From a virus, in IMG/VR virus record IMGVR_UViG_3300031237_000230, positions 1-28,132 of that record: a stretch of DNA of 28,132 nt; one strand, given 5' to 3'. The translations under genes and the position numbers were made by a program. Positions 2,751 through 27,365 of this stretch are shown in pieces. The notes below the pieces were generated by a model that did not search any database, was not told the DNA's origin, and saw only the letters and a program-made list of their open reading frames with translations. Every line of letters begins with the position of its first letter. Within the stretch, counting starts at the first letter, position 1.

Positions 2751-4019
2751 CTATGATCCGGCGGCCTGGATCACATCATGATCGACGATGCCGCGTGCCG
2801 CGGCGATGTCCGCGAAAGTTCGGTCCTCACCGTCAAGCACCGCGGTCTCGCCTGTCGTTTCCTGCCAGCGCCGCACGATCACATCGGCATAGGCCGGATC
2901 AATCTCCAGCAGCACGGCGCGCCGTCCCGTGCGCTCTGCCGCGATCATCGTGGTGCCCGATCCGCCGAAGCAGTCGAGCACCGTGTCACGCGGCTTGCTG
3001 CTGTTGCGGATGGCCCGCTCGACCAGAGCCACCGGCTTCATCGTCGGATGCAGGTCGTTGCGCGCCGGCTTGTCGAAGTGCCAGACGTTCCCCTGGTCGC
3101 GGGCGCCGCACCAATAATGCTGGCTGCCCTGGCGCCAGCCGTAGAGCATTGCCTCGAACTGCTGGTGGTAGTCGGCGCGGCCGAGCGCGAAAGTGTTCTT
3201 GGCCCAGATGATGGTGCTGGACCATTTGCCGCCGGCCTCCTGCCAGACCCGATGCAGCGTCGGCCATTCGGAGGAGGACATGCAGACGTAGCAGGCGCCC
3301 TTGGTAACCGAGAGCAGATTGGCCAATGCAGGGCGGAGGAACTCGGGAAAGCCACCGCCGAGCGCGTCATTGGCGATGGTCATCTTGGCCGCCGTGCCGC
3401 CTTCGTAGGCCACATTATAGGGCGGATCGACGAAGCCCATGTCGGCCAAGTGGCCAGCGCCGAGGGCGCGCTGGACGTCGATCAGCTTCGTCGCGTCGCC
3501 ACAGAGCAACCGGTGCTCGCCGCAACGCCAGAGATCACCGGTGCGCGTGACGGGGATCGCCGGTGGCGGCGGCGCCTCGTCGGCATCGTCGCCGAGACCG
3601 GCGCCGGCTGCCGCCAGGAGGCGATCAAGCTCCATGCCGGAAAAACCAAGTACGTCGAGGTCCACCACCGCCTCGTCGCGGATGCGGGCGATCTCCGCAG
3701 CCAGCAGCGCTTCGTCCCAGCCGGAGTTCAGCGCGATCTGGTTGTCCGCGAGCCGCAGGGCACGCGCCTGCGCCGGGGAAAGGTGGCCGAGCCGCAGAAC
3801 AGGCACGGAGGCGAGGCCCAGCTGCTTGGCCGCCATGACGCGACCGTGGCCGGCGATCAGCACACCCTCGGCGTCGACCAGGACCGGATTCACGAAGCCG
3901 AACTCGGCAATGGAGGCGGCAATCTGTGCCACCTGCGACGGCGAATGCGTGCGGGCGTTCTCGGCGTAGGGCACCAGCGCCGCCACCGGCAGCGACGAGA
4001 CGACTAGATCAGGCTGCAT
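2751..4019 (-). CDS. ParB-like nuclease domain / DNA methyltransferase fusion (DPPY type)
   Basis: This 422-residue phage-type protein joins an N-terminal ParB/Srx-like domain (about 5-100; NARTHSPSQVAQIA, GHGR at 57-60, LRLADNQIALNSGWDE) to an SAM-dependent amino-methyltransferase. Methylase motif IV is DPPY (198-201) and motif I DCFGGSGTT (349-357) comes after it, preceded by HPTMKP (324-329): the order of beta-class N6-adenine or N4-cytosine enzymes; DPPY is more usual for N6-adenine. ATG at 4019 is supported by GGAGAT upstream and overlaps the previous gene by 11 nt. No restriction nuclease is fused or adjacent on this strand, so an orphan methylase protecting phage DNA is the best reading. 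Target sequence is unknown. Confidence 0.9.
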   Translation of the reverse strand: MQPDLVVSSLPVAALVPYAENARTHSPSQVAQIAASIAEFGFVNPVLVDAEGVLIAGHGRVMAAKQLGLASVPVLRLGHLSPAQARALRLADNQIALNSGWDEALLAAEIARIRDEAVVDLDVLGFSGMELDRLLAAAGAGLGDDADEAPPPPAIPVTRTGDLWRCGEHRLLCGDATKLIDVQRALGAGHLADMGFVDPPYNVAYEGGTAAKMTIANDALGGGFPEFLRPALANLLSVTKGACYVCMSSSEWPTLHRVWQEAGGKWSSTIIWAKNTFALGRADYHQQFEAMLYGWRQGSQHYWCGARDQGNVWHFDKPARNDLHPTMKPVALVERAIRNSSKPRDTVLDCFGGSGTTMIAAERTGRRAVLLEIDPAYADVIVRRWQETTGETAVLDGEDRTFADIAAARGIVDHDVIQAAGS

Positions 4020-5475
4020 TGGCGGTGATCTCCATCCGCACCGCGGCAATGGCGTCGTAATCGCGCCCATCTTCGGCGAGGGTCACCGGCAGCTCGGGAT
4101 GGAGCATCCGCCAGCGGGCGATGGCCAGGTCGACATAGGCCGGCGCCAGCTCGATCGCCCGCACGCGGCGGCCGGTGCGCTGGCCGGAGAGGATCGTGGT
4201 GCCGGAGCCGCCGAAGGGCTCGAACACGGCGTCGCCCTCGTCCGTGTAGGTTCGCATCAGGAACTCAGGCAGCACCACCGGGAACACCGCGGGGTGCTCG
4301 GTCTCGATGCCGCGGCCCTTGTGGCGGGTCAGGCGCAGCACGTTGTCGGGGATCCGGAAATCCTGCACCGGCAGCCCGGCGTGCTGATATTCGGAGATGG
4401 TCCCATCGGCCGCCCGCAACCCGCTGCCCTTGTTCGGCGTGCCGGCCCATTTGCAGGGCACGATCTTGTTGGCCTGGCGGGCCTGACGGTTGAAGTGGAA
4501 GATGAACTCGAAGGCGGGCGCCAGTCGGCCATTCCAGTCACCCGGCAGGCCGGGCCCCTGGTCCCATGTGTATAGCCCGAACCGGCGCCAGCCGCGCGCC
4601 CGCATCCAGTCGAGCCAGCCCGACCAATACGGGATCCATTCACTGTCGCGGTGGATCAGGCCGAGGTTCACCAGCACCTGGCCGTCCGGCCGCATGGCCG
4701 CGTCGAGATGCTGGAACACGCCCTGCATTAGGGCATCCCAGTCGGTGCCGCCGCCGGTGGTGTAGTCGCGCTGGTTTCCATACGGCGGGCTGGTCAACAG
4801 GAGCGCAGCGCGGTCCTCGCCCATCACGCGCGCCACGCTGGCGGCGTCGGTGCTGTCGCCGCAGAGCAGGCGATGATCGCCGAGCAGCCAGAGGTCACCG
4901 GGACGCGTGACGGCCTGGCGCGGCGGCTCCGGATTTGCATCGGCGGGATCCTCCGCCCGCGCATCCTCGGTGCCAGCCGCGCCTGCCGCACCGCCCCCCT
5001 CGGCGGGATCCGCAGACAGCGCCTCGGGCGCGTCGCCGTCGGACACGGCATCTCCAGCCGCCGCGAGGATGTCTGCGAGCTCATCCGCCGAGAAGCCAAG
5101 GGCACCGAGGTCGATGTCCGCCAACTGCACCGCGGCGAGCGCATCACGCAGCAGCGCCTGGTCCCAGGTCGCGTTCTCCGCGATGCGATTGTCGGCGAGC
5201 CGCAGCGCTTCCTTCTGGGCCGCGGACAGGTGCCGCAGCACGATCACCGGCACCTTGGTCATGCCGATCGCCGTCGCGGCTTCGAGCCGACCGTGGCCGG
5301 CGATCAGCACGCCGTCCTCATCCACGAGCAGCGGATTGGTGAAGCCGAAGGCCAGCATGCTGGCCTTGATCTGCTCCAACTGCTCGGCACTGTGCACGCG
5401 CGCGTTGCCGGCATGCGGCCGCAGCTCCACCACCGGACGCAGCAGGATCTTCGCCGCCATCCAGGGGAGCGTCAT
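4009..5475 (-). CDS. ParB-like nuclease domain / DNA methyltransferase fusion (SPPY type)
   Basis: This second fusion of the same architecture has 488 residues. The ParB-like domain is at about 8-105 (HAGNARVHSAEQLEQIKAS, GHGR 60-63, LRLADNRIAENATWDQ). An Ala/Glu/Asp-rich linker (about 140-190) leads to the methylase, with motif IV TSPPY (228-232) and motif I FGGSGTT (421-427). S/TPPY is the form more usual for N4-cytosine methylation, so it may differ in target base from its neighbour. I chose ATG at 5475; ATG at 5460 is also possible because neither has a strong Shine-Dalgarno. Upstream is a 381-nt region with two families of repeats, probably the control region of this methylase pair and of the divergent cassette at 5857. 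Confidence 0.88.
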   Translation of the reverse strand: MTLPWMAAKILLRPVVELRPHAGNARVHSAEQLEQIKASMLAFGFTNPLLVDEDGVLIAGHGRLEAATAIGMTKVPVIVLRHLSAAQKEALRLADNRIAENATWDQALLRDALAAVQLADIDLGALGFSADELADILAAAGDAVSDGDAPEALSADPAEGGGAAGAAGTEDARAEDPADANPEPPRQAVTRPGDLWLLGDHRLLCGDSTDAASVARVMGEDRAALLLTSPPYGNQRDYTTGGGTDWDALMQGVFQHLDAAMRPDGQVLVNLGLIHRDSEWIPYWSGWLDWMRARGWRRFGLYTWDQGPGLPGDWNGRLAPAFEFIFHFNRQARQANKIVPCKWAGTPNKGSGLRAADGTISEYQHAGLPVQDFRIPDNVLRLTRHKGRGIETEHPAVFPVVLPEFLMRTYTDEGDAVFEPFGGSGTTILSGQRTGRRVRAIELAPAYVDLAIARWRMLHPELPVTLAEDGRDYDAIAAVRMEITANAA

Positions 5476-14120: not shown

Positions 14121-14660
14121 TCAGGCATTGCGGCGCCAGGGCGGGGTCGCTGCCGCGCCGGTGCGTGCAGCGGGCGGAGGTGCCGCTGCGACCGGGCGGG
14201 GCCCCGGGGTGGCGGGCCGCGGTGCGGTGCCAGTGGCTGCACCGGCGTTGGCCGCGGAGTAGCCAGCCACCTTGTTCCGCGCCTCGCGGTGCACGCCGTA
14301 CTTGTCGGGACCGGCGGGCTCGACCTTCAGCGTCACGATCAGCGGCTTGAAGTGCAGCTGCTCGCTGTCGCTGACATGCACCTGGCCCACCGCGTGGCAG
14401 ATGGCGGACAGCGTGCGCTGCGCGATCTCCACCGTCTGCTCGTTGCGGTTCACCAGGTTCAGCTGGTCGAAGATCTTCCGGCGCGCGGAGGGACCTTCCA
14501 GCACCTCGAACACCAGCTTGAGCAACTGTCCGTCGCCGGCCTTGGTCGGCAGCATCTCGCTTTCGATCAGATGCGCGAGGTATTTGCCGGGCGGCAGTAC
14601 CTCCAGCGGGACGGCGGGGGCGACTTCGGTCGCGTCAAAGGTTCCATTGAGGGATGCCAT
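14121..14660 (-). CDS. DUF669 family protein (probable phage ssDNA-binding protein)
   Basis: This 179-residue protein has the DUF669 pattern: PPGKYLAHLIESEMLPTKAG, then LLKLVFEVLEGPSARRKIFD and QLNLVNRNEQTVEIAQRTL. The family sits beside phage recombinases and is regarded as an ssDNA-binding/OB-fold-like partner. The C-terminal 45 residues are Ala/Pro/Thr-rich, as in the disordered tails of SSBs, but end in Arg-Arg-Asn-Ala rather than the usual acidic tip. GGAG lies 7 nt before the ATG at 14660. It follows the Sak4-like ATPase gene by 3 nt, so the two are likely made together. Confidence 0.82.
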   Translation of the reverse strand: MASLNGTFDATEVAPAVPLEVLPPGKYLAHLIESEMLPTKAGDGQLLKLVFEVLEGPSARRKIFDQLNLVNRNEQTVEIAQRTLSAICHAVGQVHVSDSEQLHFKPLIVTLKVEPAGPDKYGVHREARNKVAGYSAANAGAATGTAPRPATPGPRPVAAAPPPAARTGAAATPPWRRNA

Positions 14661-14663
14661 GGG

Positions 14664-15455
14664 TCAGCTCCGGGCTTCGGTGGTGGAGGCGGGCGCGGCG
14701 CTGGGCGGCGTCGCGTAGAAGGGGATGCCGGCGGCGACCTCGGGCCAGGACAGCGGCAGCGTCTCGGCCAGGCCGAAGCGGTTCTTCGCGAGGAAGGCCG
14801 GCCGCTCGGCGGTGTGCAGCAGGCGATCACCGCCGCTGACGCCGCGGACCACCTTCTTGTTGAAGCCGACGTCCGACTTCAGCGTGCTGACGCGATAGTT
14901 CGCGAAGAGCACGGCATCGACATGCTCCTGCACCAGCGCGGAGGCACTGCGGTGCAGCTTGGGTTGATACCGGTCGTAGGGTTCGGTCTCAGGGCTGTCG
15001 AAGCGCTTGATCTCGGCGTGCGCGATCAGGATTACGCCCATGCCTCGCTCGTCGCGCAGTGCGTTCACGCCGTCGAGGAAGCTGCGCCAGGTATCCAGCG
15101 CGGCGAGATACCCCTTGCCGTAGCCGAAGGACTCGATGTCCGGCTGGTTGTGCGTCTGCGCCGTGTGCTGCCAGACCAGCGGCTCCAGCCAGTCGAGGCT
15201 GTCCACCACCAGCGTCTCGAAGTCGTGCGCCTCGGTGTAGAGACTGCCGAGCGCCTCCATCACCGCGTCGAAGCTGCGCAGCACGCCGAAGGTGGAGGCG
15301 CTGATCGTGCCCAGCCCGTCCTCGGTCTGCACCACCACCGGCCGAGGCGCGGAGGTCGCGAACAGCGTCTTGCCGACGCCGGCCACACCATAGGTGAGCA
15401 GCCGCGGCGGGCGCGCGTCGCCACCACGCCGCAGGGATGCGAGGGAGATCGCCAT
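14664..15455 (-). CDS. Sak4-like RecA-fold ATPase (phage AAA_24 type)
   Basis: This 263-residue P-loop ATPase has Walker A GVAGVGKT (23-30) and Walker B TLVVDSLD (81-88), then an ILIAHAEIKRF segment typical of phage nucleotide-binding proteins of the AAA_24/Sak4 type. These proteins act as minimal RecA-like single-strand annealing recombinases. The partner genes fit: DUF669 SSB-like protein, Cas4-like exonuclease and SF2 helicase immediately downstream. The C-terminal 20 residues are Ala/Pro-rich and probably disordered. ATG at 15455 overlaps the previous stop by 1 nt (TGATG). Family call rests on motifs and context; a plain phage ATPase is the alternative. Confidence 0.82.
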   Translation of the reverse strand: MAISLASLRRGGDARPPRLLTYGVAGVGKTLFATSAPRPVVVQTEDGLGTISASTFGVLRSFDAVMEALGSLYTEAHDFETLVVDSLDWLEPLVWQHTAQTHNQPDIESFGYGKGYLAALDTWRSFLDGVNALRDERGMGVILIAHAEIKRFDSPETEPYDRYQPKLHRSASALVQEHVDAVLFANYRVSTLKSDVGFNKKVVRGVSGGDRLLHTAERPAFLAKNRFGLAETLPLSWPEVAAGIPFYATPPSAAPASTTEARS

Positions 15456-17235: not shown

Positions 17236-17938
17236 GTTCATTCTCCAGGGCGTTGATCCAGAGCGGCAGCCGCTGCAGCGCCTCGCGGGCCTCGCCGCGC
17301 AGATCGGCGAGCAGGGCGCGCGGGCTGCGGCCGGCGAGGGATGCGAAGTCGGTGGGCAGGGTCGCCACGGTGAGGACGGCGGCCGTCCAGTCGGCCCAGT
17401 CGGCACCGATGGGCGTGACCTTCGGCGGCTCGGGCGGCGGGGACGGACGCCTCGTGCGGGGGGTTGGCGGGCCGAGGGTGGCGTGCACGGCATCGCGCAC
17501 AGCGCCGCGCAGCCCGGTCATGGTCGGCGGCGCGCCTTCGGCGCGGGACTGCGCGAAGTAGGCCTCCATCGCGGCGCGCCCCGCGGCCTGGGCCTGCTCC
17601 TCGCGGCCGCCAGCCAGCTCCTCGTAGCGGTGGGCGGTACTGGTGGAGATGCCCGCATCCGCCAGGGCCTGGGCCTTCGAAGTTCCCACCGCTGGGAACT
17701 TCGAGCCACCGCCTGAGCCGCCATGGTCTGCGCGTTCCAGCTCCCGGCTCAGCTCACCGATGCGCACGCAGGCGCGCAGGTGGATCTCACGCACCCAGAC
17801 CTCGAGGTCGCGGTCGTCGCGTTGGCGGGCATAGGCGGCGAGCGCCGAAGCCTTGTCGCGGATCTCCGAGGCCTCATCGATGCGGGCGCATTCGGCCAGC
17901 GCGGTGCGGGCCTGCTCGTAGCGGACCAGCGCGGGCAT
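17219..17938 (-). CDS. Conserved phage protein with ParB/HTH-like segment (239 aa)
   Basis: This 239-residue protein opens LVRYEQARTALAECARIDEA, then EIRDKASALAAYARQ and REIHLRACVRIGELSREL, a helical pattern I associate with phage and plasmid proteins carrying a ParB-like HTH. KAQALADAGISTSTAHRYEEL (about 88-108) looks like the HTH. A Pro-rich linker (about 157-173) and a C-terminal helical domain follow. Its start forms TGATG with the preceding gene. A perfect 12-bp stem-loop lies inside the coding sequence at 17677-17704. Likely a DNA-binding regulator or partition-like protein; the evidence is pattern-based only. Confidence 0.65.
   Translation of the reverse strand: MPALVRYEQARTALAECARIDEASEIRDKASALAAYARQRDDRDLEVWVREIHLRACVRIGELSRELERADHGGSGGGSKFPAVGTSKAQALADAGISTSTAHRYEELAGGREEQAQAAGRAAMEAYFAQSRAEGAPPTMTGLRGAVRDAVHATLGPPTPRTRRPSPPPEPPKVTPIGADWADWTAAVLTVATLPTDFASLAGRSPRALLADLRGEAREALQRLPLWINALENEHDHTA
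17677..17704. repeat. Perfect 12-bp inverted repeat inside a coding sequence
   Basis: TCGAAGTTCCCA (17677-17688), loop CCGC, and TGGGAACTTCGA (17693-17704) pair without mismatch. It falls within the 239-aa gene, coding for the residues around KFPAVGTSK. It might be a protein-binding palindrome or an mRNA hairpin. Confidence 0.7.
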
Positions 17939-18168
17939 CAGGCGGTCACCGCGGCCGGCACGCCGGCATGGGACGGCTGCGGGATGCTGGTGGCGTCGCG
18001 GGTCTGCGCCGCCTCGAAGGCCTCAATATCCTCGAGGCGGTAGGCCACGCGGCCGCCCAGCTTCAGGAAGGCGGGCCCCTGGCCCAACCAGCGCCAGCGC
18101 TCCAACGTGCGGGGGCTGAGGCACCAGCGGCGCGCCACCTCCGTCTGCGTCAGATGCTTCACTGTCAT
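17938..18168 (-). CDS. HTH_17/AlpA-like small DNA-binding protein
   Basis: This 76-residue protein has a MerR/excisionase-type winged helix (VKHLTQTEVARRWCLSPRTL, ERWRWLGQGPAFLKLG, VAYRLEDIEAFEA). Proteins like this act as excisionases or transcription activators of prophage genes. It is the first gene of the long leftward operon and has GAGGGAAG just upstream of the ATG at 18168. Its stop/start overlap with the next gene is TGATG. A role in switching on the early phage operon, or in excision with the serine recombinase at 22532, is inferred from family and position. Confidence 0.8.
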   Translation of the reverse strand: MTVKHLTQTEVARRWCLSPRTLERWRWLGQGPAFLKLGGRVAYRLEDIEAFEAAQTRDATSIPQPSHAGVPAAVTA

Positions 18169-18221
18169 CGGTGCTTCCCTCGCGCTGGTTCGAACAACCG
18201 CGGGGAAGATCGCTTCAGGAC

Positions 18222-18265
18222 AGGGAGAAGAAGGAGGTGGGGTTAGGGAGAAGAAAAGGGAGAAA
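18222..18265 (-). promoter_or_regulatory. C/U-rich tract on the minus strand (candidate Rho-utilisation site)
   Basis: The plus strand is almost pure purine here, with AGGGAGAAGAA repeated at 18222-18232 and 18245-18255. Minus-strand RNA would thus be C/U-rich and G-poor, the composition of a rut site, immediately after the stop of the gene at 18271. It could end transcripts of the XRE-ImmA cassette before the phage operon. Confidence 0.4.
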
Positions 18266-18270
18266 TCGGC

Positions 18271-19206
18271 CTACAGGTCGAAACCCCAGGCGCCCTTCAC
18301 CGAGGAGACGTAGGGTTTCAGGAGGTTCCACTTCACGCCACCAAAGTGCCGATGCAGCGTCCCATGGTCAGTGAGCTCGCGGATCGGCACGCGCCTGCCG
18401 GCATGGAAGGCGTCGACCAGCTTGCGGATGGCCTGGATGTGGTCGTCCGACCTGAAGACGATTGGTTCGCCGCCGTGGATGCGCAGGCGTGTTCCATCCG
18501 GCGATAGGTCCAGCGGGCCCGGGGCGGCCGCCACTGCGACACCACGCATGCGGGCGTCCAGGATCTCGCCGCTCACGGCCAGGCCGTCCTCTGCGGCCAG
18601 CACGTCGCGGATCGGCACCAGGATCGTGCCAGGCAATGCCACCCCGCGAAGACGGGCAGCGCGACTGGTGCACAGGATGATGACATCCCGCGGATAGGGC
18701 CGTGCCTGCAGTGCGGCCGCGACCTGGGCCCGCACCGAGGCCTCCCACATTCGGCGCGCGAACCATGTCTGGACGCGCCCCGGACGCTTGCCGAGGCGGG
18801 CATCGCCCATCTCCCAGAGCAGTCCATCGATCAACGGCCGTGGCGTGCGCGCGGATGGAAGCGCCAGATCGGCTCCGATCGCGGTAAGGGTGTTGGTGAT
18901 TTCGACGCGATGCCGGGCCAGTCGCGCGGCCGGCACCGCGACCAGACCGCCGGAGGGGCTGAAATAGGCAAACCCGCCCGCCTTCTCGGATCGAATCAGC
19001 GTCACCGGCGCGTCGTCGTGATCCGCGAGCGATGCCGAGACGGTCTCGTGACCGTGGGGCACCAGCAGCTCCCTGGCCCGCAACATGCCAACGGGGCCGG
19101 GCGACATCTCCGCCACGGCCCCGCTCAGGAAGGGCTCCTCCAGGTCCAGCACCTCGAGGAGGAGAGCGACAGCCTCGGCCGAAAGCCGGGGCGGTTCGTC
19201 AGACAT
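18271..19206 (-). CDS. Unrecognised protein (311 aa), last gene of the XRE-ImmA cassette
   Basis: I do not recognise this 311-residue protein. Visible segments are DEPPRLSAEAVALLLEVLDL at the N-terminus; VEITNTLTAIGADLALPSAR; a central LLWEMGDARLGKRPGRVQTW; a hydrophobic strand DVIILCTSRAARLRGVAL followed by GTILVPIRDVLAAEDGL; and a C-terminal helix-rich part (SDDHIQAIRKLVDAFHAG, VPIRELTDHGTLHRHFGGVK) that could be a winged helix. There is no signal peptide. Its ATG at 19206 overlaps the previous gene by 8 nt. It closes a four-gene minus-strand unit with XRE and ImmA genes, so it is probably expressed in the lysogenic state. Defence, immunity or regulation are all open. Confidence 0.7.
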   Translation of the reverse strand: MSDEPPRLSAEAVALLLEVLDLEEPFLSGAVAEMSPGPVGMLRARELLVPHGHETVSASLADHDDAPVTLIRSEKAGGFAYFSPSGGLVAVPAARLARHRVEITNTLTAIGADLALPSARTPRPLIDGLLWEMGDARLGKRPGRVQTWFARRMWEASVRAQVAAALQARPYPRDVIILCTSRAARLRGVALPGTILVPIRDVLAAEDGLAVSGEILDARMRGVAVAAAPGPLDLSPDGTRLRIHGGEPIVFRSDDHIQAIRKLVDAFHAGRRVPIRELTDHGTLHRHFGGVKWNLLKPYVSSVKGAWGFDL

Positions 19207-20398
19207 CCCGCAGCATCCGCCAGCGCTTCAGGTACTTCTCACCGACCAGGCGTTCGCGGTCGGTGCGGTCCTTCAAATCGCAACCCTTCGGCATTGAGAT
19301 GGTGACCGGCAGCGTGCGACCGCCGCGCACCCCCGGCGTCGCGTGGAACTTGATGGTGAAGCGGGCCTGCGTGACCTTGAAGCCGCCGGCCAGCGGATCG
19401 TTGTCGCAAAAGCGCGCCTCCGCCATCTGCCAGATGCTGCGCTCCGCCCCGCGCATGCATTCCAGCGTCACACGCTCGGCCTGCGTTTCGTAGGGCATCA
19501 GCCGCAGCAGGCTGACCTTCACCGATCCGATGTTGTCCTCGACATCGGTCGGAAAGTCGAAGGGCTGCAGCAGGTGGTCCAGTGAATACTGGCGGATTGG
19601 GATGCGGTCGCCATCGAACGGCGCGCCCAGCATATGTTCGGCGAACAGCCGCACCAGGTCCTCGCGGGTCTCCCGCGCCTGCGCCACCACCTCGATGGTG
19701 CCGGAGGCGGGCTCATAGGTGATGGCCGCCTCGACCACCGGGCGGAAGGGAAGCCGGTCGAGCTTGCCGTCGACGAAGGCGCGCCGATCACCGGCGCGGC
19801 CTTCGCGGTAGATGGCGACCTGGATCAGCGCCGCATCCTCCCCGTCGAGCGAGGGGCGGGAACGGTCGCAGATCTCCACCTCGACATGCTTCGTGTCGAA
19901 GTGCGTGGCGATGGCCGCCTTGAAGGCCGTGTAGGGATCACCGTCACGGGGCACCGTCAGGCCGGGCAGGCATTCGAAGCCGTCCCACATGCGGCCATAG
20001 CGGCGGTCATCGGCATAGCGGACTTCCTCCGCGTGACCGAAGCCGGCAGGGTCCTTGAGGAACATCCACAGCGCCCGGGCATGCCCGTTCTCCAGGGAGT
20101 CCAGAATGTCGGCAGCATTGGAGATCGAGTAGAGCGCGGCCTGGCCGGCTTCGTCGGTCATGGCGCCTACGCGGTCGGCGTCGTTCATGACGCGCAGCCG
20201 TTCGGCGTCGTGCATGGCATCCACCGCCCGCAGCAAGGGTGGCACGACGACGTTGGCCGCACCCTCCCACACCACATCGGGCGGCATTTCGGCCTGGATG
20301 AACGTGAAATAGGAGCGGAGCGACGCGGGGGGCGTGCTCCGGATGAAATCCGGGACTGTCGGCACAGGGGGTCTTTCGATCAGGGCCACGCCAGCCAA
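19199..20398 (-). CDS. Unrecognised protein (399 aa), XRE-ImmA cassette
   Basis: This 399-residue protein is not in a family I can name. It begins at TTG 20398, supported by GGAG seven nt upstream. Features include VPDFIRSTPPASLRSYFTFI near the N-terminus, a helical stretch with DAMHDAERLRVMNDADRVG, a segment KHVEVEICDRSRPSLDGEDA, strands with EAAITYEPASGTIEVVAQAR, and a basic C-terminus (MPKGCDLKDRTDRERLVGEK). No catalytic motif is clear. It is separated from the ImmA gene by 84 nt containing nested inverted repeats and overlaps the next gene by 8 nt, so these two genes probably act together, for example as a complex. Confidence 0.7.
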   Translation of the reverse strand: MAGVALIERPPVPTVPDFIRSTPPASLRSYFTFIQAEMPPDVVWEGAANVVVPPLLRAVDAMHDAERLRVMNDADRVGAMTDEAGQAALYSISNAADILDSLENGHARALWMFLKDPAGFGHAEEVRYADDRRYGRMWDGFECLPGLTVPRDGDPYTAFKAAIATHFDTKHVEVEICDRSRPSLDGEDAALIQVAIYREGRAGDRRAFVDGKLDRLPFRPVVEAAITYEPASGTIEVVAQARETREDLVRLFAEHMLGAPFDGDRIPIRQYSLDHLLQPFDFPTDVEDNIGSVKVSLLRLMPYETQAERVTLECMRGAERSIWQMAEARFCDNDPLAGGFKVTQARFTIKFHATPGVRGGRTLPVTISMPKGCDLKDRTDRERLVGEKYLKRWRMLRDV

Positions 20399-20418
20399 TC
20401 CGGCGCTCCGCTAATCGA

Positions 20419-20459
20419 CGTATCAAAAATCAGTGTGCGGGCACAAGCGAAAAGATACG
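20419..20459. repeat. Nested inverted repeats in the ImmA-399aa intergenic interval
   Basis: CGTATC (20419-20424) pairs with GATACG (20454-20459), and inside it TGTGC (20434-20438) pairs with GCACA (20441-20445); both are centred near 20439. This is an 84-nt intergenic interval, so the structure may be an operator, a promoter element or an mRNA processing hairpin controlling the last two genes. Confidence 0.45.
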
Positions 20460-20482
20460 CACAGCAGCGTAGTCTCGGCGGG

Positions 20483-21205
20483 TCAGCCGAAGAGCGTGGG
20501 AGGCCCGGCCGAATCGGCCAAAAGACCGAGTTTCCGCAACCGAACCTGCGCCGCCTCGGCCGAGACCTGGAAGCTGGCCATGGTGTGCCGCTCCGCCTCG
20601 GCGGCCGGCGGCGTGCCGATGACGGCAGCGCCATGGATCCCCCGGTCCCGGAGGAGGTCCCCAACCGCCCGACGCACCTGTTGGGCCGGCATCAGGATGG
20701 CGCCGCTGAAATAGCCGGCCTGCCATTCCAGCCAATCGAACTCGCTGATCCCCATCATGCTGTCGCGCTTGCAGACTGTCCGCGGCTCCGCGCGCGCCGC
20801 CTCGAACATGTGCGGCGGCGCGGCGAAAAGCTGATCAAAGACAGCCCGGTGGTAGAAGGCGTGGCCCAGTTCATGGGCCAGCGTGGTGCGCAGCCGATTC
20901 TGCCGATTGGCTTGCTCGGTCAGCTGAATGGAGATCAGGACCTGCGGCGGTTCGTCTGGCAGGAAGCACGTCATCCCCTCGACGTCGTCGCCCTCGTCGG
21001 AGAGGTCGGCATACAGGTCGAGACTGCTGCTGTGCTGGTCGACCAGTACCGTGAGGTCGTCGGTGGAGATCGGGAAACAGACATTGCCGTGGCGCTGCTG
21101 CAGGAAGGCCGTGACCAGCCGCTCGCAATCGCGGTCGATCTCTGCTGCCCGCAGGAAGAGCCTCTGCGGAAAGCGCCCCGATTTATCGATCGACCAGCTC
21201 GCCAC
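20483..21205 (-). CDS. ImmA/IrrE family metallo-endopeptidase
   Basis: This 240-residue protein has the zinc-peptidase motif HELGH (111-115, in TLAHELGHAFYH) and a likely third ligand E160 in WLEWQAGYFSGAILMP, as in ImmA/IrrE proteins. ImmA of ICEBs1 cleaves its XRE repressor ImmR to induce the element, and IrrE/PprI cleaves DdrO in the DNA-damage response. The start is GTG 21205, with AGGAT about 8 nt upstream, 10 nt after the stop of the XRE gene. The adjacent XRE protein is the natural substrate candidate. This pair probably controls induction of the prophage or of the cassette. Confidence 0.9.
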   Translation of the reverse strand: MASWSIDKSGRFPQRLFLRAAEIDRDCERLVTAFLQQRHGNVCFPISTDDLTVLVDQHSSSLDLYADLSDEGDDVEGMTCFLPDEPPQVLISIQLTEQANRQNRLRTTLAHELGHAFYHRAVFDQLFAAPPHMFEAARAEPRTVCKRDSMMGISEFDWLEWQAGYFSGAILMPAQQVRRAVGDLLRDRGIHGAAVIGTPPAAEAERHTMASFQVSAEAAQVRLRKLGLLADSAGPPTLFG

Positions 21206-21215
21206 GCATGCAATC

Positions 21216-21542
21216 CTATTTCGAGAGGGCTTTCCGGAACGCCTTGAACGCCCGGACCCTAGTCGCCGAATCTGTCGCGGCGGCGCGGAGATCCTCGGGG
21301 ATCTTGCCGGCCAGGACGAACAGATCATCCGCGTCCACGGATAAGGCCCGGGCGAATTCTCTGATCAGCTGGTCGGAGGTCGGGCTGCGGCGGTCGTGCT
21401 CGATGTCGTTGAGGTATTGCGGCGATATCGATCCCGTGCCGTCCTCCTTCTGGACAGCGGCGGCCAGGTCCTTCTGGCTGATCCCCTGCTTCTTCCTGGC
21501 GGCAATGATGGCCTGTCCCAGGGTGGTGGTCGGCGTTGTCAT
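21216..21542 (-). CDS. XRE family HTH repressor (ImmR/DdrO-like)
   Basis: This 108-residue protein has an N-terminal Cro/C1 HTH (LGQAIIAARKKQGISQKDLA, then SISPQYLNDIEHDRRSPTSD; about 8-65) and a C-terminal helical tail of about 40 residues. ATG at 21542 is chosen over a GTG at 21578 because AAGGG lies just upstream and the HTH begins at the usual distance. It heads the four-gene unit with the ImmA gene. The region upstream has repeated CTTAGC/GCTAAG half-sites that are likely its operators. By analogy to ImmR/ImmA it would repress until cleaved. Confidence 0.88.
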   Translation of the reverse strand: MTTPTTTLGQAIIAARKKQGISQKDLAAAVQKEDGTGSISPQYLNDIEHDRRSPTSDQLIREFARALSVDADDLFVLAGKIPEDLRAAATDSATRVRAFKAFRKALSK

Positions 21543-21831
21543 CGCCCTTGCATCCGGCGAAATCCTTGCCTGTGGCACTTAGCGGAGTGGCGTAGTCGGC
21601 TGCTAAGTCCTACGTCAAGCCGCGAAGTTGGACGTGGCGAAGGATTTAGCTTCCGCGATGGGACCCTACGCCAGCGCCGATTCGCGGCGCGACGACCAGG
21701 GTCACGCTGAGACCGGCCCGGCAACGCCCTACGCGCGATTTCGCTGCGGTGCTTTTGTTCCCGCGGGCCTTCGCTAAGAGATTGTTTTCGCTGTTCTTCT
21801 CGGTTGGGCGACACAATCTTGCCTCCCAGCC
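21543..21831. promoter_or_regulatory. Divergent control region with CTTAGC/GCTAAG half-sites
   Basis: This 289-nt interval lies between the leftward XRE gene and the rightward recombinase chain. ACTTAGC (21577-21583) and GCTAAGT (21602-21608) form a 7-bp inverted repeat with an 18-nt gap, and GCTAAG recurs at 21773-21778. AGATTGT (21779-21785) and ACAATCT (21813-21819) make another inverted pair. CCCTACGC occurs at 21664-21671 and 21727-21734. It probably holds both promoters and the XRE operators. I see no gene in it. Confidence 0.5.
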
Positions 21832-22032: not shown

Positions 22033-22535
22033 CACGCGCCACCAAATCCAAAGCCGGCAACCCGCCGGCGCCCACCATCCCCGCCATCCCACCGGCCGAC
22101 GTGCTCGGCCGCCTGGCGGCATTGAAGACCGCCGCCACGCCGGACCTGAAGCAGCAATGGCGGGAACTCTTCGCCGCCGAGCCGCCGCCCTACAACCGTC
22201 GCTTCCTGGAGAGCCGCCTGGCCTACCGCATCCAGGAACTGGCCTACGGCGGCCTAAAGCCCGAGACCATCCAGCGCCTCGAGGCCCTGGGTGAACAGCT
22301 CGACGGTGGTAATCCCGTCCTGCGGCGTATCCGCGGCGACGACAAGCCGATCAGCGGCACGCGGCTGATCCGGGAGTACCAGGGCGTCGAGCACAGCGTG
22401 ACGGTGCTGCACGACGGCTATGAGTATCAGGGCCGCCCCTACCAGTCGCTGTCCTCCATCGCCCGCGCCATCACCGGCACGCGCTGGAATGGCTGGCTGT
22501 TCTTTGGCCTGAAGAACCGGAGGGGCACGGCATGA
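22029..22535 (+). CDS. DUF2924 domain-containing protein
   Basis: This 168-residue protein has the DUF2924 pattern: DLKQQWRELFAAEPPPYNRR, then FLESRLAYRIQELAYGG, LIREYQGVEHSVTVLHDGY and YQGRPYQSLSSIARAITGT, followed by RWNGWLFFGLK. The family occurs almost always with a large serine recombinase and is thought to help it, though its biochemistry is not established. The C-terminal half resembles the small DNA-binding domain seen in phage and plasmid proteins. It overlaps both neighbours by 4 nt (ATGA). Confidence 0.88.
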   Translation: MTRATKSKAGNPPAPTIPAIPPADVLGRLAALKTAATPDLKQQWRELFAAEPPPYNRRFLESRLAYRIQELAYGGLKPETIQRLEALGEQLDGGNPVLRRIRGDDKPISGTRLIREYQGVEHSVTVLHDGYEYQGRPYQSLSSIARAITGTRWNGWLFFGLKNRRGTA

Positions 22536-23884
22536 AGCGCAAGCCAGCCGCCGACGCCGCGATACCGGCCACGGTCAGGAAGATCCGCGCCGCGGTGTAC
22601 ACGCGCAAGTCGAGCGAGGAGGGGCTCGACATGGAGTTCAACTCGCTCGACGCCCAGCGCGAGGCATGTGAGGCCTATATCACCAGCCAGCGGTCGGAGG
22701 GCTGGGTGTTGGTGCGCGATCGCTACGACGACGGCGGCGTGTCCGGCGGGACGCTCGAGCGGCCTTCGCTGCGCCGCATGCTGGCCGACATCGAGCGCGG
22801 CCTCATCGATGTGGTGGTCGTCTACAAGATCGACCGGCTGTCGCGCGCGCTGATGGACTTCGCCAAGCTGGTGGAGGTGTTCGACGCGAACAGTGTGACC
22901 TTCGTGTCCGTGACGCAGAGCTTCAACACGACCACCAGCATGGGCCGGCTGACGCTGAACATCCTCCTCAGCTTCGCGCAGTTCGAGCGGGAGGTCATCG
23001 GCGAGCGCATCCGCGACAAGGTGGCGGCGTCACGGGCGCGCGGAATCTGGATGGGGGGCTTCGTGCCACTCGGCTACGACGCCAAGGACCGCAAGCTGCT
23101 GGTGAATGAGGCTGAGGCGGCGCTGGTGCGGCGCATCTTCGATGGCTTCGTCCAGACGGAATCCGGCACGAAGCTGGTGCAGGCCCTTCGCGCCGAGGGC
23201 GCCACCACGAAACGCGGCCGCGCCTTCACCAAGAGCGACATCTATCGGGTGCTGAGCAATCGCACCTATCTCGGCGAGGCCATGCACAAGGGGAAGTCGC
23301 ACCCGGGCGAGCATGCTGCCATCGTGCCACAGGCCATGTGGGATGCGGCGCACGCCCTGCTGGCGATCAGCCCGAAGACACGCGCCAATCGCACCCGCTG
23401 CCAAACGCCCTCGCTGCTGCGCGGGCTGATCTTCGGCAGCGACGGCCGCGCCATGTCGCCCACCCATGCGCGGGGCCGCCGCGGCCAGCAGTATCGCTAC
23501 TATGTCAGCCAGTCGGTCCTGAAGGGTAGTGCCGCGGACGGGCCGGCCATCGCGCGCATCTCCGCCGCAGAGATTGAGGGCGCGGTCATTGCCCAGGTCC
23601 GGGGGCTGCTGCGTCAGCCGGAGGTGGTGCTTGGCGCCTGGCGCGCGGCGCGGTCCGCAGCGCCGGACATGACGGAGGACGAGGCGCGGCTGGCGCTGGA
23701 GCGGCTGGACCCGCTGTGGGAGGAGCTCTTCCCCGCCGAGCAGGCGCGCATCATTCGCCTCCTGGTCGACCGGGTGGACGTCGGGCCTGGCGGCGCCGAT
23801 GTGCGGCTGAAGCTTGAGGGGCTGGCGAGCCTGGCGCGGGACCTGGCGACGCCGCCCGCCGAACCGGCGAAGGCCGCGGCATGA
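22532..23884 (+). CDS. Large serine recombinase (integrase)
   Basis: This 450-residue recombinase has the resolvase domain (about 18-165): YTRKSSEEG with the probable nucleophile S27, DRYDDGGVSGGTLERPSLRR and YKIDRLSRALMDF. The recombinase domain follows (about 180-320, with RIFDGFVQTESGTKLVQALR and LSNRTYLGEAMHKGKSHPGE). Next comes a segment where other members have a zinc ribbon (LLRGLIFGSDGRAMSPTHAR); no cysteine pair is present here. The last 100 residues are helical. It probably integrates and excises the element. Start and stop overlap the neighbours as ATGA, so four genes form one chain. The attachment sites are not identified in the window. Confidence 0.9.
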   Translation: MKRKPAADAAIPATVRKIRAAVYTRKSSEEGLDMEFNSLDAQREACEAYITSQRSEGWVLVRDRYDDGGVSGGTLERPSLRRMLADIERGLIDVVVVYKIDRLSRALMDFAKLVEVFDANSVTFVSVTQSFNTTTSMGRLTLNILLSFAQFEREVIGERIRDKVAASRARGIWMGGFVPLGYDAKDRKLLVNEAEAALVRRIFDGFVQTESGTKLVQALRAEGATTKRGRAFTKSDIYRVLSNRTYLGEAMHKGKSHPGEHAAIVPQAMWDAAHALLAISPKTRANRTRCQTPSLLRGLIFGSDGRAMSPTHARGRRGQQYRYYVSQSVLKGSAADGPAIARISAAEIEGAVIAQVRGLLRQPEVVLGAWRAARSAAPDMTEDEARLALERLDPLWEELFPAEQARIIRLLVDRVDVGPGGADVRLKLEGLASLARDLATPPAEPAKAAA

Positions 23885-24315: not shown

Positions 24316-24490
24316 CCCGCTTGAACTGCTTTGGCCTTGTGCCCGCGGCCACGCACATATCCTGGCGCCCCGCCTCAGAGACTGAATCGATATTGTTGCC
24401 ATGGCCACTATTTCGGCTATCTGCGATGGTGATTGCGGTGCCGTTTCCGCCGACATGACCTTGTACCGGCCCGGACCAGGAGGAGGGTAA
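24316..24490. other. Intergenic junction between recombinase locus and low-GC cargo
   Basis: No gene can be supported here. Base composition becomes more AT-rich between about 24360 and 24425 (a GATATTGTTG segment near 24390), marking the left border of the cargo. A promoter for the rightward operon at 24491 is expected in this interval, but I see no clear -35/-10 pair. This is also a plausible location for an attachment-site remnant. Confidence 0.35.
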
Positions 24491-24577
24491 ATGGTGGGAA
24501 TGAAGTACCGACTTCCATTCGATATCAAGGGAGTAGCGCTTGTCACGGGGCGGGCGGTAAGAGGCACGAAGGCATGA
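24491..24577 (+). CDS. Short leader ORF (28 aa) coupled to the DUF932-like gene
   Basis: The ORF starts at ATG 24491, 3-4 nt after a very strong Shine-Dalgarno (AGGAGGAGG), encodes 28 residues beginning MVGMKYRLPFDIKG, and stops at TGA 24575-24577, overlapping the next ATG (24574) as ATGA. The DUF932-like gene itself has only a weak ribosome site, so this ORF may supply its translation. No family is known to me. It may be a leader peptide or the remnant of a longer gene. Confidence 0.5.
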   Translation: MVGMKYRLPFDIKGVALVTGRAVRGTKA

Positions 24578-25542
24578 CGATCGCCGCTCGACCTTGGAAA
24601 CCTCGTAACCCCACAGAAGCATTCTTCCCGGTGGAAATGCGTCCACTGTTTATGAGGGGTTCAGGCCGTTCCGAAAGTTACAACAAGCTTGATCGGCATT
24701 TCGCTGTCGTTGATGTGGAGCGTCAGAACCCCTTCGCTGTGGTAACTGAAGAATACAAACTGGTTACGAATGAGGCGGCTTACGTAATGGCAGCCGAAGT
24801 GATGCAGAAAGTATTTCACACCACTCAGCTAAGTGACATGGAATGCTTGAATATCACCATGCCAAAGAGCCGATCCTTCTGTCACATCGATTTGATTCAT
24901 AAGACCGCTGACTTCTCCCCGTGGGAAAGGGACAAGTGGACCGCCTTTCTTCGTATCAGCAATAGTTACAACCGCACCCGTCTTCTGCGCTTCGAACTCG
25001 GCTTCTGCCGCTGGATCTGCTTGAACGGCATCATTTTTGGAAGCAAGAGCATAGAGTTCAGCTACGCCCACACGCGGCGCGGCATGGACCGGGTGGATCG
25101 CTTCGCCGAAAACATTGGGGACATCCGCAAGCTGGAAACCGCACTGACCGAGAAGCTGCACCAGTTGAAGCGCTATCATGTACCTGCGAAGGAAATGCTG
25201 CCCCTGCTGTGCCGCGCCTTCGACATCAAGGCGACCGCAGAAGTGGTCAAGAAGCACAGGCGCGTTGACGAGCTTCTGGTGCTGAGGGAGCAGACCAAGA
25301 CCCTGACCCAGGCTTACTTTTCGGACATGGGGGCCCACGGGTATGCTGCGCTGAACGTCCTGACGGACTACGCTTCGCGGCCGGCGGGTATGTTCGCACC
25401 GGAAGCCAGCATGCATGGCCTGCAGCATAAGGCGGGCAGTTGGATGGACGACTTCATTTCGGCCATCAAGAACGCTGATTTTTCCTTTGACAGCTACCTG
25501 GCCGACTACCGCCAAACGGCTGAAGTGATTGAGTCCTTATGA
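24574..25542 (+). CDS. DUF932-like protein
   Basis: This 322-residue protein shows the DUF932 (phage/plasmid-like) pattern: YNKLDRHFAVVDVERQNPFA, then EEYKLVTNEAAYVMAAEVMQ, RISNSYNRTRLLRFELGF, and CRWICLNGIIFGSKS. The C-terminal part is helical (KLHQLKRYHVPAKEMLPLLC, DELLVLREQTKTLTQAYFSD). DUF932 proteins occur on plasmids and phages; some have been suggested to act in DNA metabolism, but function is not settled. The ATG at 24574 is set by the ATGA overlap with the leader ORF and the gene itself overlaps the next by 4 nt. GC content is clearly lower than in the prophage region. It is probably the partner of the GmrSD-like enzyme. Confidence 0.75.
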   Translation: MTIAARPWKPRNPTEAFFPVEMRPLFMRGSGRSESYNKLDRHFAVVDVERQNPFAVVTEEYKLVTNEAAYVMAAEVMQKVFHTTQLSDMECLNITMPKSRSFCHIDLIHKTADFSPWERDKWTAFLRISNSYNRTRLLRFELGFCRWICLNGIIFGSKSIEFSYAHTRRGMDRVDRFAENIGDIRKLETALTEKLHQLKRYHVPAKEMLPLLCRAFDIKATAEVVKKHRRVDELLVLREQTKTLTQAYFSDMGAHGYAALNVLTDYASRPAGMFAPEASMHGLQHKAGSWMDDFISAIKNADFSFDSYLADYRQTAEVIESL

Positions 25543-27365
25543 TCAAGTCGGTCAACAACTACCCGGTCTCGCAGCTCTTCGACATCGAAGCAGGTGTGGT
25601 CTATGCGATCCCACGCTACCAGCGCGAATACACTTGGAAGGTGGATCAGTGGGAGGCGCTCTTCGATGACGTAGAAGAGAACGACCCCGGGTACTTCCTG
25701 GGTTCGATCATCTGCATCAACCAGACCACTGACACCCTTGCGGTGCAGCGCCTGGAGGTGGTGGACGGCCAGCAACGGCTGACGACGCTGTCTCTGCTAT
25801 TCGCGGCGCTGCACCAGTCGTTGAAGCAGCACGAGAAAGACCTGGACGACGATCAGCGCGTGGAGCTGATCAACCTCAAGCGGAAGCTGGTGCTGAAGAA
25901 GGGAAACGACCATCTGCGCGTGGTCCCGCAAATTCAGAACCACAACCAGAATGACTACCGTGCAGTATTGTCCGAGGTGGGTGTGATCAGTCAATGCGAC
26001 GCGCCAGCCTATGCGGGAAACCGTAAGATCTTCCGCGCCTTCCGCTACTTCCAGGCGCGCATCGAAAAGCTGGTGTATGGTGAAAACGACCGCCTGGCGT
26101 CGATCTTGGCCTTCCTCGACAAGGTGAGCCAGGCGTGCCTAGTGAAGATCGAAGTGGCCAGCCACGCCGATGCCTATACGCTGTTTGAATCGCTCAACAA
26201 CCGGGGTACGCCGCTCACTGCCGTCGACCTGATCAAGAACAAGCTGCTGGCGCGGCTGGAAGTCACGGAACCAGGAAAGGTAGACTACTACTTTGACGTA
26301 TGGAACAAACTTCTGGGATATCTCGGGGATGACTACAGCATTCAGGAGCGTTTTTTCCGGCACTACTACAACGCATTTAAAGACCCGCTGAACGAGCCGT
26401 TCCGCAAGGGCGAGGACAAAAAGAGGGACCCGCTGGGCCCAGTGGCCTCACGGTCCAACCTGATCCAGATTTACGAGAAGCTGATCAACCAAGACGCCAA
26501 GGAGCACCTGCAGGCTATTCGTGCCGCTGGCCAGCTGTATGCACTGATGCTTGCCCGGAACTCAGACGAGGCCTGGGCGCCGCTGGACAAGCCGCTTAAA
26601 GATCTAGACCGAATTCAGGGCGCTCCCTGCTACCTGTTGATGCTGTACCTGCTGGTACGGCGTGATGCGCTGGCCATAAACGTGGTGCATCTGGAAAATA
26701 TCGCGCAGCTGCTGGTGTGCTTCTTCGTTCGACGCAACCTCACTGACACACCGCCCACCCGCGACCTGACGCGCTTTTTCATGGCCGCCATCGACAAGGT
26801 GGCGGAACTTTCGGGCGATGCTGTGGTGACGGCCATCCGAGACCAATTGCTAGCGGTATCGGCCAGCGATGAGACCTTCCGCAGCAAGCTGGAAGGCGCC
26901 ATCTACGAGGAAAATGCGGGAGTCACCCGGTTTGTGCTGTGCGCCTTGGCCGAGCAGAGCATGACAAAGGAGACCTGGGTCGATCTATGGAAGTACGAAG
27001 GCAAGCTCTTCGTGTGGACCATCGAACACATCTTCCCGCAGGGTGACAACATTCCTGCGTCTTGGGTGGCCATGATCGCGGGCGGAGACGAGAAGGAGGC
27101 CAAGGCCATTCAGGAGACCCATGTACACAAGCTGGGGAATCTGACGATCTCGGGCTTCAACAGCGCGCTGGGCAACAAGAGCTTTGAAGGCAAGCGCGAC
27201 CGCACCGATAGCAAGGGCCGCGAAGTGGGTTACAAGAACGGACTCAGGCTGAACGCCGAACTGGCAACGGCCGAGGCGTGGAGCGTTGATAAGATCGATG
27301 CGCGCACAACGTCGCTGGTGGACCAGGTGATGCGCCTTTTCGCCATGACGGGGGGCCGGCCATAA
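25539..27365 (+). CDS. GmrSD-like single-chain enzyme (DUF262-DUF1524)
   Basis: This 608-residue protein fuses an N-terminal DUF262 domain (AIPRYQREYTWK at 23-34; VVDGQQRLTTL with DGQQR at 76-80) to a C-terminal DUF1524 domain with the HNH-like motif EHIFPQ (496-501) and HKLGNLTISGFN plus GNKSF (530-549). This layout is that of GmrSD-type modification-dependent (type IV) restriction enzymes, where DUF262 supplies NTP hydrolysis and DUF1524 cuts DNA carrying modified bases. Between the two is a long helical region (about 100-480). The start overlaps the DUF932-like gene as ATGA, so the two form a unit. Domains look intact, so the protein is probably active. Nearby methylases may explain the need for modification-aware restriction. 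Confidence 0.88.
   Translation: MIKSVNNYPVSQLFDIEAGVVYAIPRYQREYTWKVDQWEALFDDVEENDPGYFLGSIICINQTTDTLAVQRLEVVDGQQRLTTLSLLFAALHQSLKQHEKDLDDDQRVELINLKRKLVLKKGNDHLRVVPQIQNHNQNDYRAVLSEVGVISQCDAPAYAGNRKIFRAFRYFQARIEKLVYGENDRLASILAFLDKVSQACLVKIEVASHADAYTLFESLNNRGTPLTAVDLIKNKLLARLEVTEPGKVDYYFDVWNKLLGYLGDDYSIQERFFRHYYNAFKDPLNEPFRKGEDKKRDPLGPVASRSNLIQIYEKLINQDAKEHLQAIRAAGQLYALMLARNSDEAWAPLDKPLKDLDRIQGAPCYLLMLYLLVRRDALAINVVHLENIAQLLVCFFVRRNLTDTPPTRDLTRFFMAAIDKVAELSGDAVVTAIRDQLLAVSASDETFRSKLEGAIYEENAGVTRFVLCALAEQSMTKETWVDLWKYEGKLFVWTIEHIFPQGDNIPASWVAMIAGGDEKEAKAIQETHVHKLGNLTISGFNSALGNKSFEGKRDRTDSKGREVGYKNGLRLNAELATAEAWSVDKIDARTTSLVDQVMRLFAMTGGRP

Follow-up and report, generated by a model that had tools for sequence, protein, structure and literature searches.

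Genes and features of the locus

The viral record IMGVR_UViG_3300031237_000230 of IMG/VR, positions 1 to 28,132 of which (28,132 nucleotides) were analysed and are designated the window, carries on its minus strand four consecutive genes that encode an XRE repressor, an ImmA/IrrE metallopeptidase and two larger proteins, here termed P2 and P1 in the order of the genes. An earlier note on this DNA, made from the sequence, had placed these genes in the immunity region of a phage and had proposed that the two larger proteins act in superinfection immunity or in a damage-triggered defence. All four open reading frames (ORFs), the overlap of 8 nt between P1 and P2 and the location in a phage immunity region were confirmed. 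The feature reaches beyond the four genes, as it also includes a tandem array behind P1 and the gene following this array, which encodes an AlpA-like protein designated c3 (Table 1). Our analysis leads to a different interpretation, to which we assign a probability of roughly two thirds: P2 and P1 form the two subunits of an early regulator, which probably acts as an activator and is released upon loss of XRE in a large group of temperate phages carrying a serine recombinase.

Conservation of the P2-P1 pair

A search of IMG/VR with P2 matched 148 stretches, the best 80 of which were kept. In the following, loci are labelled L and genomes G; since the relatives share ancestry, the counts are not independent. 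P1 was found next to P2 in 94 of the 95 loci with 700 nt of downstream sequence, and in the exception (L139) both lie in one frame. In two loci the proteins are fused, giving proteins of 733 aa in L201 (P2 profile 8e-40, P1 profile 4.6e-24) and 724 aa in L150 (8.6e-31 and 3.8e-18), and together with the adjacency these fusions back the suggestion that the two proteins act together. ImmA is encoded at most 3 kb upstream of P2-P1 in 59 of the 63 loci with 2.5 kb of upstream sequence, either co-directionally as in the window (26 loci) or divergently (33 loci), and was not seen within this distance in L024, L053, L054, and L057. The duplicates L047, L051, L052, and L055 and the distant loci L058-L060 were left out of the adjacency, ImmA and fusion counts. 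The two proteins thus do occur together in other genomes, and the refuting condition of the earlier note, a lack of such co-occurrence, does not hold. In close relatives, the order XRE-ImmA-P2-P1 is kept.

Beyond viral sequences, P2 was detected in 31 of the 398 Pseudomonadota genomes sampled and, at an E value of 0.001, in 16 of 299 genomes from the family to which G001 (Roseomonas ponticola) belongs, several of the latter matches being weak. A search with P1 yielded five genome loci, and P2 was present in all five of these genomes. Among 50,697 phage records neither protein had a match, and with plasmids P2 had a single match and P1 had none. In a survey anchored on the AAA_24 protein of the downstream early region, for which 80 of more than 595 relatives were kept, a P2- or P1-like protein was found in 36 of the 47 loci with 2.5 kb of upstream sequence; the pair is therefore common, not universal. 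In L147, L163, L165, L166, and L194, which belong to the same phage group, a LexA-like XRE-S24 repressor replaces XRE-ImmA and is accompanied by a divergent P1-like protein of 227-281 aa, P2 being absent. No description of the P2-P1 pair was found in the titles and abstract openings searched, a coverage outside which most subscription papers lie.

The XRE-ImmA pair and operator-like sites

By sequence, XRE and ImmA are ordinary members of their families. XRE is a Cro/C1-type helix-turn-helix repressor, whose match to Pfam HTH_3 lies above the family cut-off, and the adjoining ImmA carries the HExxH motif of its family in the form HELGH. The best PADLOC models were capP for ImmA (6.3e-15) and, besides HTH_VI (5e-9), capH for XRE (1.1e-5), in agreement with the proposed nature of the two proteins as a pair of the DNA-damage type. 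Proteins of cyclic-oligonucleotide-based anti-phage signalling systems (CBASS) were absent from the Pfam scans of 20 ORFs of the window, and P2 and P1 were without a PADLOC match. In L055 and L137, XRE and ImmA are 83-89 % identical to those of the window; in L055, the values are 83 % for XRE, 89 % for ImmA, 48 % for P2, and 32 % for P1, with the operators intact. A recombination joint thus apparently follows the operators, and XRE-ImmA and P2-P1 can therefore presumably recombine apart.

In the co-directional loci, the gap between ImmA and P2 contains an inverted repeat with conserved arms and a variable spacer, and related sites occur both ahead of XRE, at a distance of about 52 nt, and in front of P2, where they form a pair with a spacing of 47-49 bp. 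All 32 unique co-directional loci have two or more such sites no farther than 85 nt from the ImmA stop codon (shuffled sequences: mean 0.08, maximum 2), and in 31 of 31 unique loci the 120 nt preceding XRE contain one or more. In the divergent loci, every one of the 35 unique gaps between XRE and P2 contains a TTCG-N4-10-CGAA dyad (shuffled: mean 1.4, maximum 4), 32 of them contain TTGAC, and the P2 promoters there have a good -35 element. Identical gaps were counted once in the operator and dyad counts. Only the placement and conservation of the operator-like sites count as evidence, not their frequency in the window, where TACGC-N6-GCGTA with at most two mismatches was found 13 times with 12.1 occurrences expected. 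Some divergent loci, including L080, L083, and L092, have, between the promoter and P2, a small gene whose product of about 79 aa (MAKGK..HHVVPN..GGWDVRRGGA) presumably resembles DUF2188.

In both layouts, P2-P1 thus looks to have a promoter of its own flanked by XRE-operator-like sites, although the P2 promoter of the window, as read from its sequence, has no clear match to the consensus. Because the operator-like repeats upstream of XRE recur as a pair before P2, we infer that P2-P1 is repressed by XRE. The pair of sites inside the ImmA-P2 gap also bears on the view of a single four-gene unit: the gene order stands, whereas P2-P1 is probably a transcription unit of its own and not simply part of a four-gene operon.

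The tandem array and its covariation with P1

The array is located behind P1 at a fixed distance before c3, with a spacing of 12-11-11 nt, and its three-unit pattern occurs once in the window, with none expected. Among the phages, its units read TTCTCCC, TTCTGCC, TTCTGTC, TTCTCTC, CCTACC, CCTCC, CCCCC, or TTCACAC. It stays before c3 even where AbiE genes separate P1 from it by about 1.8 kb. In ten of ten new unique loci, the array was located at -106 to -109, a position attained in no locus by more than 5 of 200 shuffles; this held-out test was confined to loci with a recognisable c3 and counted identical arrays once. Among the loci left out, repeats after P1 can be seen by eye in L304, L309, L310, L312, and L321. 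The unique c3 promoters include a NATNNT hexamer near -55 in 58 of 82 cases and a -35 element better than three of six positions in none of the 82 (L094, L147, L166, and L199 were left out of the array-consensus and promoter counts, and identical promoters were counted once). In L005 (6986-8652), L078, L079, L084, L086, L097, L098, L110, and others, a reversed gene pair encoding an AbiEii toxin and a DUF6088/AbiEi-like protein lies between P1 and the array, an insertion that marks a cargo slot beside the immunity region.

The sequence of the array varies together with the C-terminus of P1. In 86 unique loci, array distance tracked the distance of the P1 C-terminus when that of the N-terminus was held constant (partial r 0.60, 0 of 2000 permutations), and the reverse test, array against N-terminus with the C-terminus held constant, gave a partial r of -0.02. 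DNA beyond the array was more weakly correlated with the C-terminus than the array itself (0.40 vs 0.72). L094, L145, L147, L166, L191, and L199 were left out here, and identical arrays were again counted once. Physical linkage of the 3' end of P1 and the array could produce such a covariation, an explanation that is weakened by the persistence of the correlation in 15 loci where P1 and c3 are separated by more than 700 nt (P1 being 0.8-1.8 kb away), most of which carry the same AbiE insert. In these distant loci, r was 0.605 for the C-terminus and the array (1 of 2000 permutations), and the values for the N-terminus (0.297, 90 of 2000) and for control DNA (0.26, 123 of 2000) were both weaker.

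At the level of single residues, the comparison with the arrays covered those P1 proteins whose recognition helix is of the F-G type, from 52 loci with 28 unique pairs of helix and array. Phenylalanine at residue 287 goes with G at base 5 of the unit in two of two pairs (0 of 26 in the others), and glutamine at residue 286 with T at base 6 in 11 of 12 (0 of 16 in the others); as the sequences are related, Fisher values for these associations overstate independence. P1 has the appearance of a regulator that acts on the next operon in a sequence-specific manner.

Predicted folds of P1 and P2

P1 had no match at an E value of 1 in Pfam, NCBIfam, PADLOC, or PHROGs, and searches of solved structures by sequence gave nothing useful. 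The AlphaFold2 model of P1 (pLDDT 86.3, pTM 0.66) suggests two winged helices in the fold search. Its residues 229-311 resemble those of the OmpR/PhoB family, with VanR as a match (Z 6.2, rmsd 2.9 over 78 residues) besides many response regulators, and with Z below 8 the C-terminus looks like an OmpR/PhoB-type winged helix at the level of fold only. Members of this family bind tandem direct repeats, those of PhoB having a period of about 11 bp and taking the place of the -35 element. A receiver domain was detected by Pfam neither in P1 nor in 60 relatives, beyond chance matches. The longest helix of the P1 model has 15 residues, and with the winged helix at the C-terminus the model displays no features of a RexB-like membrane protein, no dedicated membrane predictor having been run.

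For P2, the same four libraries gave a single strong match, phrog_37634 (1.2e-72), a family of unknown function; further matches were weak and below threshold. A match to DNA_pol3_theta (0.004) lies under the family cut-off and was taken as chance. Neither protein thus matches a named family by sequence, be it structural or metabolic, and by fold both resemble DNA-binding proteins. In the VIA search, the best match in the PDB of the P2 model (pLDDT 86.9, pTM 0.71) was CENP-N (Z 8.4, rmsd 4.7, 168 residues), followed by RdgC (2owl, Z 6.4, rmsd 9.9, 215 residues), CENP-L (Z 5.5), and Iml3 (Z 5.2); the top 17 rows, with Z from 8.4 to 5.1, all belong to the RdgC/RexA/CENP-N-L group, and the next row has 4.3. 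Foldseek gave a best E value of 4.7e-4 and RexA at rank 13 (E 0.019, probability 0.20), and in a viral structure library two recombination-associated (RdgC) phage proteins occupied ranks 3 and 4. By sequence, the RexA family was absent from the Pfam matches of 46 P2 members at an E value of 1, and with respect to RdgC (PF04381) P2 had no Pfam match and hhalign against 23 RdgC sequences gave nonsignificant E values of 0.21-0.46. Because no sequence relation was found, P2 is regarded, on moderate scores, as a fold relative of the RdgC/RexA/CENP-N group and not as a family member, a similarity that is no proof of descent; it is probably a DNA-binding dimer. The RexA fold is reported to be common to RdgC, IML3, and CHL4, and RexA binds DNA non-specifically and biases phage lambda towards lysis (PMC11077077), and Chl4/Iml3, the orthologues of CENP-N/L, resemble RdgC (PMC4080450).

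Gene neighbourhood

The typical gene order of the group is recombinase, DUF2924, XRE-ImmA, P2, P1, and AlpA-like c3, followed by recombination and replication genes. In the window, genes for a DUF2924 protein and the serine recombinase flank the locus on one side and genes for AAA_24, DUF669, PD-(D/E)XK, helicase, and primase proteins on the other. The AAA_24 protein is one that we take to be Sak4-like. The true start of P2 is probably a GTG at 20365, which gives a protein of 388 aa, because its relatives mostly align from about residue 10-15 onward.

Table 1 Features of the P2-P1 locus and its surroundings (positions in the window)
Feature	Position	Strand	Description or evidence
AAA_24 protein	14664-15455	-	Downstream early region; 2.3e-48
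DUF669 protein	14121-14660	-	Downstream early region; 8.2e-16
c3	17938-18168	-	AlpA-like HTH_17 protein, first gene past the array; HTH_17 1.2e-7
-10-like hexamer	18206-18211	-	GATCTT, 11 nt past the last repeat unit
Tandem array, proposed P1 binding site	18223-18264	-	Three TTCTCCC units at offsets 0, 12, and 35; repeat pattern
P1	18271-19206	-	ORF of 311 aa
Predicted OmpR/PhoB-like winged helix of P1	~18274-18522	-	C-terminal residues 229-311; AF2 model, fold search, covariation with array
P2	19199-20398	-	399 aa from TTG; phrog_37634 1.2e-72; RdgC/RexA/CENP-N-like predicted fold
O2, operator-like site before P2	20407-20422		2 mismatches, 49 bp from O1
O1, operator-like inverted repeat before P2	20456-20471		TACGC-N6-GCGTA, 0 mismatches
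ImmA/IrrE metallopeptidase	20483-21205	-	240 aa from GTG; HELGH; Peptidase_M78 1.2e-7 (Pfam)
XRE repressor	21216-21542	-	108 aa; HTH_3 1.2e-9
Operator-like site upstream of XRE	21579-21594		2 mismatches to TACGC-N6-GCGTA
Further candidate operator-like site upstream of XRE	21611-21626		2 mismatches; kept in closest relatives only
Serine recombinase of the element	22532-23884	+	Resolvase 1.6e-38

Beyond the recombinase, the plus strand encodes a DUF932 protein (24433-25542) and a GmrSD-type restriction protein (25539-27365; GmrSD_N 5.7e-38, GmrSD_C 1.7e-15), both of which are likely cargo. At the other end of the window, the minus strand encodes a DUF3489 protein (1462-2319) and a DNA methylase that weakly matches ParB_N (2751-4070).

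Outside the typical context, the plasmid CP013100 of Ca. Tenderia electrophaga (L024, 6001-10670) has a Multi_ubiq-ThiF operon preceded directly by P2-P1, with an array of the TTCACAC type and CATAAT in between, a single case which suggests that the P2-P1 unit can drive other operons.

Proposed regulatory circuit and alternative explanations

The proposal of an early regulator builds on the conserved pairing and fusion of P2 and P1, the operator-like sites, the fixed position of the array, its covariation with the P1 C-terminus, and the predicted folds. In the prophage, XRE bound to the operators flanking the P2 promoter would keep P2-P1 silent. Removal of XRE by ImmA, presumably by cleavage as is suggested by its family, would allow P2 and P1 to be made, whereupon the C-terminal winged helix of P1 would bind the tandem direct repeats of 11-12 bp just upstream of the next operon, which starts with the AlpA-like gene and leads into the recombination and replication genes. 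There, P1 would probably recruit RNA polymerase to a promoter with a -10-like and without a -35 element. P2, the regular partner of P1 and probably a dimer on DNA, would take part in this unit, and P2-P1 would form the middle tier of a cascade between XRE-ImmA and the early operon.

Several observations weigh against this proposal. The fold match of P2 is moderate (Z 8.4 at best, TM 0.2-0.3) and without sequence support, and the circuit leaves the role of P2 unexplained. The residue-base rule, fixed beforehand, failed at base 6 in the only held-out locus with this type of helix (0 of 1), so that its part on Q286 has to be taken as soft. Neither protein was found in 11 of the 47 loci of the AAA_24-anchored survey, L017 carries P1 without P2, and the P1-like proteins beside LexA-like repressors in the five loci mentioned above stand alone and share only the C-terminal part. 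Activation, finally, is argued from promoter shape and circuit logic, and the evidence for binding fits a repressor as well. P1 might accordingly be a Cro-like repressor made on induction, which limits or times the early operon through the array, the last repeat of which sits at the -35 position. We regard this as improbable, if slightly less so than the explanations that follow, as all 82 c3 promoters score at most three of six at -35 and would be weak unaided, in contrast to the P2 promoters of the divergent loci with their good -35 elements. P2-P1 could also be a replication initiator, P1 binding the repeats as iterons of a phage origin and P2 opening or protecting the DNA. Direct repeats with helical spacing, the adjoining early replication genes, and the two suggested winged helices of P1 would suit such a function, but the array keeps a fixed distance from the c3 start and the -10-like element, that of L024 precedes a Multi_ubiq-ThiF operon, and the window has a primase-polymerase gene at another place, so that an initiator appears unlikely.

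In line with the earlier note, P2-P1 could be an exclusion system, here of a Rex-like kind, or a damage-triggered defence system. This reading draws on a possible RexA-like fold beside a phage repressor, on AbiE genes that have entered some loci beside the pair, on GmrSD elsewhere in the window, and on the copy beside the multi-ubiquitin operon. An operator pair before P2 suggests silence in the lysogen, though, P1 looks like a promoter-specific DNA binder rather than a membrane protein of the RexB type, a conserved early region accompanies the pair across loci, and PADLOC matched neither protein. Since the pair looks XRE-repressed and heads the early side, with P1 resembling a regulator of the next operon, superinfection immunity and defence are not supported; as the main role they were set aside on position and promoter structure, not on phenotype, and we give them little credence. 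Just as doubtful is the possibility that P2 is chiefly an RdgC-like recombination factor, which P1 merely regulates or loads. It would account for RdgC and recombination-associated phage proteins among the best viral fold matches of P2 and for the AAA_24, helicase, and PD-(D/E)XK genes downstream, yet P2 lies nearly always beside P1, is sometimes fused to it, and has no sequence relation to RdgC.

Comparison with known systems

RexB is a membrane protein, whereas P1 is predicted to be a winged-helix protein. The Rex system of phage lambda (RexA/RexB; PMC11077077) is otherwise similar in that a gene pair lies beside the phage repressor and that P2 has a predicted fold of the RexA/RdgC/IML3-CHL4 group; it differs in that no sequence relation was found and by its expression together with the repressor, whereas P2-P1 looks XRE-repressed. 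A parallel in circuit logic is offered by the control of the Caulobacter gene transfer agent through RogA-GafYZ (PMC11150451), where a repressor blocks a two-protein operon that switches on the main cluster from a promoter with a degenerate -35 element, and where GafY and GafZ correspond to halves of the single protein GafA of another species, much as P2 and P1 occur fused. GafY, however, acts from far upstream with IHF, GafZ is an anti-terminator, and the accessible portion of that report mentions no comparable tandem array (PMC11150451). BisDC of ICEclc (PMC7423338) is likewise a two-protein activator that switches on a mobile element, within a different cascade (TciR, BisR).

With CapH-CapP, ImmR-ImmA, and DdrO-PprI, the locus shares a co-encoded XRE repressor and M78 peptidase that are presumed to respond to DNA damage; the targets of those systems are CBASS, an integrative and conjugative element (ICE), and a DNA repair regulon, whereas the target here would be a phage regulator pair. 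To the OmpR/PhoB family, P1 is linked by the fold of its C-terminal winged helix and by the array of tandem direct repeats of about 11 bp at the place of the -35 element, the difference being that neither Pfam nor the model revealed a receiver domain in P1.

Implications

In a more general form, P2-P1 may be an undescribed portable transcription switch, composed of an RdgC/RexA/kinetochore-like subunit and a winged-helix subunit with a recognition helix readable against the array. The switch would serve these phages as a middle tier between the damage-sensing repressor and the early genes and would have been taken up elsewhere for other operons such as Multi_ubiq-ThiF on the Ca. Tenderia plasmid; we consider the chances of this view to be about even. 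For a phage group encountered in 31 of 398 Pseudomonadota genomes and in no fewer than 148 stretches of IMG/VR, a control circuit that is functionally unnamed in four family libraries has now become testable. If the proposal is true, these phages would possess a repressor-to-regulator cascade, the DNA specificity of which is swapped between phages as a cassette of P1 C-terminus plus array, and they would provide a prokaryotic setting in which the RdgC/RexA/CENP-N-like fold joins gene control.

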